Source: Flavobacterium sp. LPB0248
GTDB taxonomy: Bacteria > Bacteroidota > Bacteroidia > Flavobacteriales > Flavobacteriaceae
Length of the DNA: 64,000 bases
Direction of reading: 5' to 3'
NCBI RefSeq assembly: GCF_013388355.1
Contig: NZ_CP058246.1
Span: forward strand, 3,410,001-3,474,000
The translations under genes and the position numbers were made by a program. Below the pieces are notes generated by a model. That model saw nothing but the letters and a program-made list of their open reading frames with translations, was not told the origin of the DNA and ran no database searches. Of this stretch, positions 10,937 through 12,971 are shown in pieces (within the stretch, counting starts at the first letter, position 1; every line of letters begins with the position of its first letter).

Positions 10937-11401
10937 ATGAATTGGTACGTAGTTTATACAAAACCTAAATGGGAAAAAAAAGTAGCCGATAAACTTAGTC
11001 AATTGGGAGTAGAATGTTATTGTCCGCTTATTACTCAGGTTAGACAATGGTCTGACAGAAAGAAGAAGATAGAAGTGCCACTTTTTAACTCTTACGTTTT
11101 TGTTCAATTGCCAGACTCAGAGCGAAGTTCTGTTTTTAATGTGGCAGGGGTTGTTAGGTATTTGTTTTGGCTAGGAAAACCCGCAATTGTGAAAAATGAA
11201 GAAATAGAAACAATAAAGAAAAGTCTTAAAGCTTCTAATATTAGTGATGTTTCAGTTTCTGCTATTCAAGTTGGAGATAAAATTAAATTAGAATCGGGTG
11301 TATTCAGCAATCAAAGTGGGGTGGTTCAAGAAGTTTCAAATAATTATTATACTTTGGTTTTAGAAAGTTTAGGATGTATTTTGAAAATAAAATATAAATA
11401 A
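10937..11401 (+). CDS. NusG-like transcription antiterminator (UpxY/RfaH type)
   Basis: A NusG paralogue predicted to bind elongating RNA polymerase and let it read through long polysaccharide operons. ATG 10937 gives the canonical NusG N-terminus MNWYVVYTKPKWEKKVADKL; an upstream in-frame TTG (10907) would add an unlikely extension. The NGN domain covers about residues 1-100, and a KOW motif follows (QVGDKIKLESGVFSNQSGVVQEV, about 111-133). At 154 residues it is shorter than housekeeping NusG. It is followed by an intrinsic terminator, a promoter with two dyads and a structured leader, and then a 38-kb gene run, exactly the setting where such factors act. Confidence 0.9.
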   Translation: MNWYVVYTKPKWEKKVADKLSQLGVECYCPLITQVRQWSDRKKKIEVPLFNSYVFVQLPDSERSSVFNVAGVVRYLFWLGKPAIVKNEEIETIKKSLKASNISDVSVSAIQVGDKIKLESGVFSNQSGVVQEVSNNYYTLVLESLGCILKIKYK

Positions 11402-11548: not shown

Positions 11549-11562
11549 TACGGGAAACCGTA
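11549..11562. promoter_or_regulatory. Dyad TACGG-GAAA-CCGTA abutting the -33 element
   Basis: Five-base arms (11549-11553 and 11558-11562) flank GAAA, and the right arm touches the TTG -33 element at 11563. The position suits an activator that contacts RNA polymerase, or a repressor. No assignment to a known regulator is made. Confidence 0.5.
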
Positions 11563-11593
11563 TTGAATAAGTAGACTTATTGTGCTATATTTG
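11563..11593 (+). promoter_or_regulatory. Promoter of the main polysaccharide operon, with an internal dyad
   Basis: TTG at 11563-11565, a 20-base spacer and TATATTTG at 11586-11593 fit the Bacteroidota TTG-N17-23-TAnnTTTG consensus fully; it is the best promoter in the window. The spacer contains a perfect 7-2-7 palindrome, AATAAGT-AG-ACTTATT (11566-11581), so a protein binding there would sit between the two polymerase contacts. Transcription should start near 11600, giving a leader of about 85 bases before the ATG at 11685. Confidence 0.8.
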
Positions 11594-11606: not shown

Positions 11607-11673
11607 ATTTAGGTAGCTGAGTCAGAGATTTGTGACTTGGAACGGCGAAGCCGTGAATTGTAATGACCTAAAT
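11607..11673 (+). promoter_or_regulatory. Structured 5' leader RNA (three-way junction)
   Basis: The leader can form a closed three-way junction. The outer stem is ATTTAGGT (11607-11614) with ACCTAAAT (11666-11673), eight pairs. The first inner hairpin is 11617-11624 with 11633-11640, eight pairs including two G-U pairs and an eight-base loop. The second is ACGGC (11642-11646) with GCCGT (11650-11654) closing a GAA loop. It lies wholly between the predicted start of transcription and the ATG at 11685. It matches no riboswitch class that I recognise. It may be a recruitment or pausing signal for the NusG-like protein encoded just upstream. Confidence 0.6.
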
Positions 11674-11684
11674 AAATTGAAGAA

Positions 11685-12971
11685 ATGGAATTAGAAAAAA
11701 ATGTGAAAATTGCGGTTATTGGTTTAGGATATGTAGGCCTGCCTTTAGCGCGATTATTCGCGACAAAATATGTGGTTGTAGGTTTTGACATAAACGAAGC
11801 AAGAGTTACGTCATTAAAATCTGGAACAGATTCAACTTTAGAAGTTGAAGATGATATTCTGCAAAAGGTTTTAGTTGAAAAACCTAACAAAAAAGGATTG
11901 TATTGCACAACTTCAGTAGATGATATTGCAAGTTGTAATTATTATATTGTTACGGTTCCTACTCCAGTCGATAAAAATAATAGACCTGATCTGACTCCGT
12001 TATATAAATCGAGTGAGACAGTTGGTAAAGTATTGAAAAAAGGAGATATTGTGATCTATGAGTCTACGGTATATCCAGGTGTTACAGAAGAGCAATGCGT
12101 TCCTGTTTTGGAGCGAGTTTCTGCCTTAAAATTCAATGAGGATTTTTTTGCGGGATATTCACCGGAAAGAATCAATCCAGGAGATAAAGAACATACTGTT
12201 GAAAAAATACTAAAAGTCACTTCTGGTTCAACTCCCCAAATAGGATTAAAAGTCGATGCTTTATACAAATCTGTTATTACAGCAGGGACTCATTTAGCTC
12301 CAACAATTAAAGTTGCAGAAGCAGCAAAAGTTATTGAAAACTCACAGCGAGATATTAATATTGCCTTTGTAAATGAATTGGCTAAAATATTCAACTTAAT
12401 GAATATTGATACCCAAGAAGTATTGGCTGCAGCTTCAACAAAATGGAATTTTTTACCATTTAAACCTGGTCTTGTTGGTGGACATTGTATTGGCGTAGAT
12501 CCTTACTATTTAGCCCAAAGAGCACAAGAATTTGGATATCATCCTGAAATTATATTAGCTGGAAGAAGATTAAATGATAGCATGGGAGAATATGTGGCTT
12601 CACAAATAGTGAAGTTAATGATTAAAAAAGGCATTTCAGTTAATGGTGCTGAACTATTGATGCTAGGAATTACTTTCAAAGAGAATTGCCCAGATGTTCG
12701 AAACACTAAGATTGTTGATGTTGTTAAAGCATTAAAAGATTATGGAATTGTAGTAACAATATTTGATCCACTAGCAAACGTTTATGATGTGAAAAAAGAA
12801 TATAATTTAGCAACATTAAACTCTATTCCCGATAATAGATTTGATGCAATAGTTCTTGGAGTTTCACACGCTGAATTTTTAGAATTGCAATTTTCAAATT
12901 TGCAGAAAGAAAAAAGTTTAATTTATGATGTAAAGGGAGTTTTAGGATCTTTAGCTGATAATAGGCTTTAA
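11685..12971 (+). CDS. UDP-N-acetyl-hexosamine 6-dehydrogenase (TviB/WbpA/WbpO family)
   Basis: Oxidises UDP-GlcNAc or UDP-GalNAc at C6 to the uronic acid. It shows Rossmann IAVIGLGYVGLPLARLFA at about 9-26, the YESTVYPGVTEE and FAGYSPERINPGD motifs, and catalytic Cys268 in GLVGGHCIGVDPYYL; SPERINPGD and the HCIGVDPYY context are typical of the UDP-HexNAc branch rather than of UDP-glucose dehydrogenase. Length 428 is normal. It is the first gene after the promoter and structured leader. With the 4-epimerase at 8462 it would make UDP-GalNAcA; the 2-epimerase-type genes here belong to nonulosonic sets. Confidence 0.92.
   Translation: MELEKNVKIAVIGLGYVGLPLARLFATKYVVVGFDINEARVTSLKSGTDSTLEVEDDILQKVLVEKPNKKGLYCTTSVDDIASCNYYIVTVPTPVDKNNRPDLTPLYKSSETVGKVLKKGDIVIYESTVYPGVTEEQCVPVLERVSALKFNEDFFAGYSPERINPGDKEHTVEKILKVTSGSTPQIGLKVDALYKSVITAGTHLAPTIKVAEAAKVIENSQRDINIAFVNELAKIFNLMNIDTQEVLAAASTKWNFLPFKPGLVGGHCIGVDPYYLAQRAQEFGYHPEIILAGRRLNDSMGEYVASQIVKLMIKKGISVNGAELLMLGITFKENCPDVRNTKIVDVVKALKDYGIVVTIFDPLANVYDVKKEYNLATLNSIPDNRFDAIVLGVSHAEFLELQFSNLQKEKSLIYDVKGVLGSLADNRL

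Follow-up and report, generated by a model that had tools for sequence, protein, structure and literature searches.

A candidate ops-like loading site for UpxY-type NusG paralogs in the leaders of Bacteroidota polysaccharide operons

What could a short, stably folded leader be doing between the gene of a NusG paralog and a long operon? The question arose in the window (the whole 64-kb stretch of Flavobacterium DNA that was analysed), where a first-pass annotation had drawn an RNA three-way junction at 11607-11673 and proposed that it either serves as the signal by which the NusG-like factor is loaded or the polymerase paused, or senses a metabolite. The fold was recovered exactly as drawn, with a closing stem P1 of 8 pairs, a hairpin P2 of 8 pairs, and a hairpin P3 of 5 pairs with a GAA loop. 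The minimum free energy of this 67-nt leader is -20.6 kcal/mol (z -3.17), and 2 of 200 dinucleotide shuffles were equally low. It was also said to match no recognised RNA family, and indeed no Rfam family reached its gathering score in the 64-kb window; when the leader region was scanned with E relaxed to 10, two weak matches were obtained, neither overlapping the element. JUMPstart RNA (Rfam RF01707), a leader element of polysaccharide operons, had no match in either of these scans. The features of the locus are the following.

10937-11401, + strand: upxY-like gene (NusG paralog, 154 aa from its ATG); NF033644 141.3 bits for a cut-off of 100, Pfam NusG
11586-11593, + strand: -7 box TATATTTG (TAnnTTTG type), from the leader alignment; predicted start a few nt 3′
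11607-11614, + strand: P1 5′ arm, closing stem, 8 pairs with 11666-11673; accessory at most
11612-11657, + strand: whole element, by covariance models R1 (50.8 bits) and R2 (50.8 bits)
11617-11640, + strand: P2 hairpin, arms 11617-11624 and 11633-11640, 8 pairs; proposed nascent pause hairpin
11631-11637, + strand: TGTGACT (conserved as TG[GT]GACT), 17-23 nt 5′ of the putative pause
11642-11646 and 11650-11654, + strand: P3, 5 pairs, GAA loop
11644-11655, + strand: ops-like 12-mer GGCGAAGCCGTG, P3 or DNA mini-hairpin plus pause sequence; putative pause nucleotide T11654
11645-11651, + strand: GCGAAGC core (GC-GNA-GC DNA mini-hairpin), from the tabulation of GNA loops and published stability
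11666-11673, + strand: P1 3′ arm, made only after the putative pause; accessory at most
11685-12971, + strand: nucleotide-sugar dehydrogenase, first gene downstream; TIGR03026 388 bits, above cut-off, TviB best match, below cut-off, and Pfam

The TAnnTTTG sequence is a Bacteroidota promoter type, and its presence at 11586-11593 puts the element early in the leader, before the first ATG at 11685, in agreement with the placement first given to it. Directly 5′ of the -7 box, at 11550-11568, lies a block ACGGGAAACCGTATTGAAT (palindromic ACGGgaaaCCGT) that varies little across L001-L013, L015 and L016; it may be where a regulator acts on this promoter. The plus-strand genes ahead of the element are, as scanned, largely polysaccharide genes.

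The NusG-like gene, described as ending 205 nt before 11607, does so (stop at 11401) and belongs to the UpxY family. It is the sole gene of this genome above the NF033644 cut-off, and probably encodes the cognate factor of the element. A weak NusG/UpxY-like fragment (23 bits, with an internal stop) lies about 11.5 kb ahead of the window start, at G000:C1:3398447-3398617. The nearest solved structures by sequence are those of RfaH (E 2e-8), whose residues K10, H20, R23, Q24, N70 and R73 are described as contacting ops (PMC5995543). In the UpxY alignment, K10 and N70 are kept while H20, R23, Q24 and R73 are changed, so that recognition by UpxY would have to differ in detail from that by RfaH; this residue pattern would fit a site related to ops but different from it.

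A DNA search of 150 relatives matched the leader region in 19 other genomes of the same genus at E < 1e-4, a threshold used in place of E <= 1, where the tally (142 of 150 genomes) was mostly due to chance. The leader was 3′ of upxY in 18 of the 19 matched genomes (L002-L019), as in the window; the weak match L020 sits elsewhere in its genome, ahead of a ferredoxin reductase gene. Across the 19 aligned leaders L001-L019, 93.7% of the cells were paired in P3, 85.5% in P2 and 69.9% in P1. The covariation score of this alignment was equalled by 14 of 500 shuffles and its number of doubly changed cells by 25 of 500, but doubly changed pairs and pair types were no better than in shuffles (245/500 and 437/500). 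With two of the five pair measures at shuffle level, the close relatives alone leave covariation unsettled.

A second set of loci was chosen by the UpxY gene (NF033644 over cut-off), which avoids selection by the leader itself. UpxY was over cut-off in 91 of the 150 Flavobacterium genomes, at 106 places, of which 90 were read (14 of the remainder are leaders already found by the DNA search). In these 90 loci the heptamer GCG[AGT]AGC has 88 occurrences on the strand of upxY and 17 on its complement. An intergenic element behind a hairpin was present in 64 loci (sense matches, hand-picked), 3′ of upxY in 63 and just 5′ of it in one; in the other 26, no recognised element was found within the DNA read around them. 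The related element consists of hairpin P2, whose stem covaries freely, followed by GGCGAAGCCGTG or a variant of it. Six loci (L104, L108, L109, L111, L112 and L115) hold further UpxY paralogs with no element nearby, and a conserved stretch 3′ of them resembles a small regulator gene when the opposite strand is read. A TAnnTTTG box was found 40-75 nt 5′ of the core in 40 of the 64 elements; of 6144 control windows, 126 had one (Fisher 1e-48). Among the 24 boxless elements, 17 sit 48-61 nt 3′ of the upxY stop, as if upxY and the target genes shared one transcript.

Compensatory changes had been sought in all three stems; they were found in P2 and, as swaps of the outer pair, in P3, P1 giving little. 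For 46 dereplicated sites taken by the sequence rule only, the mean P2 stem score was 8.71, versus 5.96 +/- 0.24 with permuted 5′ arms (0/1000 as high). The 25 sense sites outside the sequence rule scored 5.52 versus 4.89 permuted (10/1000), and 13 antisense sites had no pairing excess (3.88 versus 4.30; 943/1000). On 47 hand-picked sites, no permutation out of 2000 was as high. The covariance model R1, which describes P2 plus P3, was trained on 16 gapless sequences that had been selected because they pair in one register, and pair counts within this training set therefore lean towards structure. In the window it gave a single match at E <= 0.02, at 11612-11657, this copy being one of the 16 that trained it. 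Among 45 model matches, in an alignment fitted to the model and hence with counts leaning towards structure, 120 cells were doubly changed versus 38 +/- 6 in shuffles (0/500), 10 of the 11 P2 pairs being affected, and the number of doubly changed pairs was reached by 133 of 500 shuffles. The outer pair of P3 was G-C in 34 model matches, C-G in 4 and U-G in 4. RNAalifold predicted P3 alone, both on alignment A1 and on the MAFFT alignment A2 of the 64 elements, in which the P2 5′ arm was misaligned; it was replaced by the anchored permutation tests and the 16-sequence model.

Aligned in register with E. coli ops12, GGCGGTAGCGTG, the core GGCGAAGCCGTG shares 8 of its 12 bases with it (p 0.003 for a single fixed alignment, modest on its own), and for this reason the element is called ops-like and not filed as ops. 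As described in PMC5995543, ops has its loop at G4-A7 and the pair C3:G8 in its stem, and the pause falls at U11, just ahead of G12. The TG at ops positions 11-12 is matched by T in 64 of 64 elements and by G in 49. Numbered from the putative pause, the signature bases are T(-1) in 64 elements, G(+1) in 49, G(-2) in 49 and G(-11) in 48; G(-10) is present in 64 of 64 but is part of the searched motif. Positions -11, -10 and -2 are what we take to be pause consensus positions. Between the end of P2 and the pause T there are 10-14 nt in 58 of the 64 elements (10 being the search minimum), and a pause hairpin sits about this far back, in the RNA exit channel. The conserved TG[GT]GACT is placed immediately upstream of the bubble.

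The loop of P3 follows a rule of its own. Hairpins with two pairs and a three-base loop, 1-9 nt after TGKGA[CG]T, were tabulated in 143 UpxY loci without specifying the loop, and 67 of 109 had a GNA loop (related loci being non-independent), versus 0 of 24 in the antisense control (Fisher 4e-9). The middle base of these 67 loops was A in 55, G in 5, T in 4 and C in 3, and the stem was GC..GC in 64; GNNA loops were practically absent from UpxY sites (1/78). As RNA, the sequence GCGAAGC would be far less stable than as DNA. Extraordinarily stable DNA mini-hairpins are described as having a GNA or GNNA loop and two or more G-C pairs, with a melting temperature of 78 C for GCGAAGC (PMC4686876), and a two-pair DNA mini-hairpin is given as melting at 76.5 C (PMC10527192). 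The window core GCGAAGC has both the loop and the pairs. Since the GC-GNA-GC core obeys the rule for DNA mini-hairpins, P3 is likelier to be a hairpin of the non-template DNA strand than an RNA hairpin, and it is in this form, reduced to its core, that it probably acts. The DNA hairpin predicted in the ops register, with a three-base loop, has an energy of -3.1 kcal/mol, and 15 of 200 shuffles were as low. The authors of the ops study argue that only C3:G8 fits the 10-11 nt bubble, the outer pair G2:C10 of the crystal likely being an artefact (PMC5995543); by the same argument, two or three hairpin pairs may be too many for the bubble here.

Comparison with the known molecules places the element close to ops, the site of RfaH. 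The element and ops are both leader signals of long surface-polysaccharide operons, with a NusG paralog as the factor and a small stem-loop followed by a pause TG. They differ in that the loop is a three-base GNA in the element and a four-base GNNA in E. coli ops, in that a covarying hairpin and TG[GT]GACT stand ahead of the element, and in that its probable factor is of UpxY type and often encoded alongside. The GC-GGTA-GC contained in E. coli ops can be read as a mini-hairpin of this class with a GNNA loop, a link drawn here from the descriptions in PMC5995543 and PMC4686876. With d(GCGAAGC), or d(GCGNAGC), the element has in common an identical core, the GNA rule and two G-C pairs; the mini-hairpin is treated as a chemical structure and a tool in what PMC4686876 and PMC10527192 describe, whereas here it is a conserved genomic signal. 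Within the literature searched, no paper was found to join RfaH with DNA mini-hairpins and none to describe the element, a search outside which the work of Saba et al. 2024 fell.

Taken on sequence grounds, these data make it likely that the element resembles ops in pausing the polymerase and loading UpxY, that P2 acts in it as a nascent pause hairpin, and that such sites occur in many Bacteroidota. Of the functions first suggested for the leader, loading of the NusG-like factor or pausing for it is supported as far as linkage and sequence signature go, binding and pausing being steps that we infer. RNA polymerase would begin just past 11593 and make P2, which would fold behind it as a nascent hairpin. 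About 55 nt into the transcript, at T11654, the polymerase would pause, at a point set by GGCGAAGCCGTG, and GGCGAAGCC in the exposed non-template strand would snap to the GC-GNA-GC DNA mini-hairpin. UpxY would read this mini-hairpin, probably together with the upstream TG[GT]GACT (recognised either in the DNA duplex or in the RNA, where it is the 3′ arm of the hairpin), board the polymerase, and remain on it as an antiterminator through the long polysaccharide operon. Such a searchable signal of fixed anatomy could point to candidate target operons, even far from upxY, and makes the recruitment mechanism testable. More tentatively, with belief and doubt close to balanced, we suggest that a d(GCGNAGC) mini-hairpin of the non-template strand, formed in the paused bubble after a nascent pause hairpin, recruits UpxY-type NusG paralogs throughout Bacteroidota, that GC-GGTA-GC of ops is its form with a four-base loop, and that the reading of GNA/GNNA hairpins is a general principle of recruitment of specialised NusG proteins. 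The GNA rule could then explain the appearance of ops-like sites by the physics of single-stranded DNA, beyond base sequence alone.

Alternatively, UpxY might bind P2, P3 or both as RNA once they are outside the polymerase, pausing being secondary. P2 is, after all, a covarying RNA-type hairpin, a multi-pair hairpin of the non-template strand may exceed the bubble (from the argument in PMC5995543), and LoaP, another NusG paralog, is described as binding an RNA hairpin of the dfn leader (PMC12691694). That system also resembles the present one by its long operon and nearby pause (PMC12691694). It differs in that LoaP reads a UNCG-type RNA hairpin, the core of the element being a GC-GNA-GC located at the putative pause; no UNCG-type hairpin was found in the element, in which P2 loops vary and the P3 loop is a three-base GNA. 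Against the RNA reading, P3 obeys the GNA rule of DNA mini-hairpins and is followed by the pause bases in a fixed register, and in several copies (L078, L095 and others) P2 overlaps the first strand of P3, so that only one of the two RNA hairpins could form at a time in such copies. We consider this reading unlikely, and keep to a DNA mini-hairpin read by UpxY at a pause.

A different possibility is that the element pauses or attenuates transcription by itself, with the housekeeping NusG or NusA and independently of UpxY. The pause consensus and the spacing of the hairpin would be accounted for, but linkage to UpxY would not. R1 at E <= 0.1 matched 67 of the 150 Flavobacterium genomes. As far as the lists show, this is the same draw as for the UpxY counts, and the element was present in 66 of the 91 genomes with UpxY versus 1 of the 59 without (Fisher 4e-20), although NusG is expected in all; the lone UpxY-lacking genome, G082, gave a weak match (E 0.087). 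Leaving out the 15 genomes that provided the 16 training sequences, the counts were 51 of 76 versus 1 of 59 (Fisher 7e-17). UpxY adjoins the element in other families as well, as detailed below. Action independent of UpxY is therefore quite improbable, and an element serving UpxY remains the preferred reading.

Specialised NusG paralogs are reported in about half of Bacteroidota (PMC7593976). The covariance model R2 at E <= 0.05 matched 23 of 299 Flavobacteriaceae genomes; of the 28 loci read, among which three (L183, L184 and L189) resemble coding false positives and were left in the family-level counts, 12 had UpxY, all on the element strand, one of these 12 being a Flavobacterium. At E <= 0.02, 26 of 345 Bacteroidota genomes were matched, 9 of them outside Flavobacteriaceae, and 3 of these 9 matches adjoin a UpxY-like gene (L210, L215 and L216, the protein of the latter scoring 95 bits, under the NF033644 cut-off of 100). 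R2 gave a match in 2 of 30 UpxY loci of other families (E < 0.01) and in 3 of 23 at the level of the class, meaning that many UpxY genes there are without a detected copy nearby.

An exact-pattern scan, blind to taxonomy, of 84,980 species returned at least 118 stretches in at least 80 loci. Among the matches listed (80 loci), 72 were Bacteroidota by title and 8 were others, these 8 being about what chance predicts for the complete scan (6.5 loci). The Bacteroidota among the matches listed were Flavobacteriales, Chitinophagales, Sphingobacteriaceae, Emticicia, Saprospiraceae and Bacteroidales. With a profile of UpxY derived from 34 sequences (matches score 104-244, and the housekeeping NusG of this genome 41.5), UpxY was found in 41 of these 72 listed loci, always on the element strand, before the element in 33 and after it in 8, and within 260 nt in 38; none was found in the 8 other loci among the matches listed. 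In the UpxY tree, motif variants were clustered (for the commonest, 0 of 500 shuffles were as low), but this says little on co-evolution, as element-less rows are scattered, near-copies favour the grouping, and the placement of some long branches is uncertain.

There remains the junction, on which the idea of a metabolite sensor depended. The predicted three-way junction is stable, and P1 has paired changes at 3 of its 8 pairs in the 19 leaders and scores slightly above permutation. Its score was 7.55 versus 7.01 permuted in 10 dereplicated leaders of the johnsoniae type (37/1000) and 6.20 versus 5.81 in 47 other sites (12/1000), so within and beyond this Flavobacterium subgroup, with 4 of 500 as high in the pooled test. 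These values are only hints, and P1 is accessory at most. P2 and P3 recur far outside Flavobacterium, with little sign of P1, and the first-pass junction did not survive as a conserved or functional unit. The element is moreover found 3′ of upxY, 5′ of it and distant from it, ahead of unrelated sugar genes, and it has no Rfam match. A riboswitch built on the junction is thus very improbable, and the metabolite-sensor alternative was dropped. L001-L019 are one orthologous locus, as conservation without function through recent shared descent would have it; that reading is hardly credible, since divergent copies in other families and at other loci of the same genomes keep the pairing and the core, and P2 shows compensatory changes in the permutation tests. 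The junction as a conserved unit, the riboswitch and simple shared descent were accordingly rejected, on the weakness of P1 and on the divergent copies.

The UpxY system of Bacteroides involves the same protein family. In the work of Saba et al. 2024, UpxY of Bacteroides reportedly recognises the polymerase at a pause by way of the non-template strand and the DNA duplex upstream, with help from nascent hairpins. The family with the best UpxY scores (up to 12 family matches per genome) was taken to be Bacteroidaceae. R2 found no match in 121 such Bacteroidaceae-like genomes, which low sensitivity may explain. Inside the 5′ coding end of Bacteroides-like upxY, 20 nt before the profile start, GCGTAGC was found in 14 of 20 further loci (one genus, among L421-L440); 12 of these 14 copies were behind TGGGAC or TGTGACT, and four had a CTGCC/GGCAG hairpin. 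In a separate set of 26 Bacteroides-like loci, GCGTAGC was at the same place in 5. The pause T is absent from this motif, which we regard as a lead, part of which protein conservation could explain. In L370 and L396-L400, Bacteroides-like upxY likewise carries GCGTAGC; over these loci and the 14 together, it mostly comes behind TGGGAC or TGTGACT, and its spacing to the conserved domain is constant.

Finally, 15 weaker or second matches of the element were read, one of which (L164, from a genome without UpxY) looks poor. The promoter box was found 50-58 nt before the core in 9 of the 15. Pfam analysis of 10 proteins encoded after 9 such copies gave cytidylyltransferase-like proteins (2), epimerases (3) and a flippase-type Polysacc_synt protein, the rest being a nucleotide-sugar dehydrogenase, a ferredoxin reductase, an HMGL-like protein and one without match. 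As copies distant from upxY precede polysaccharide genes, UpxY may act in trans, by analogy with RfaH. In L211 (genome G530, of another family), the element lies between apparent sugar genes, and UpxY is on a different contig. The distant genome G566 has 17 element matches, and the two that were read (L204 and L218) sit in a similar repeated leader.
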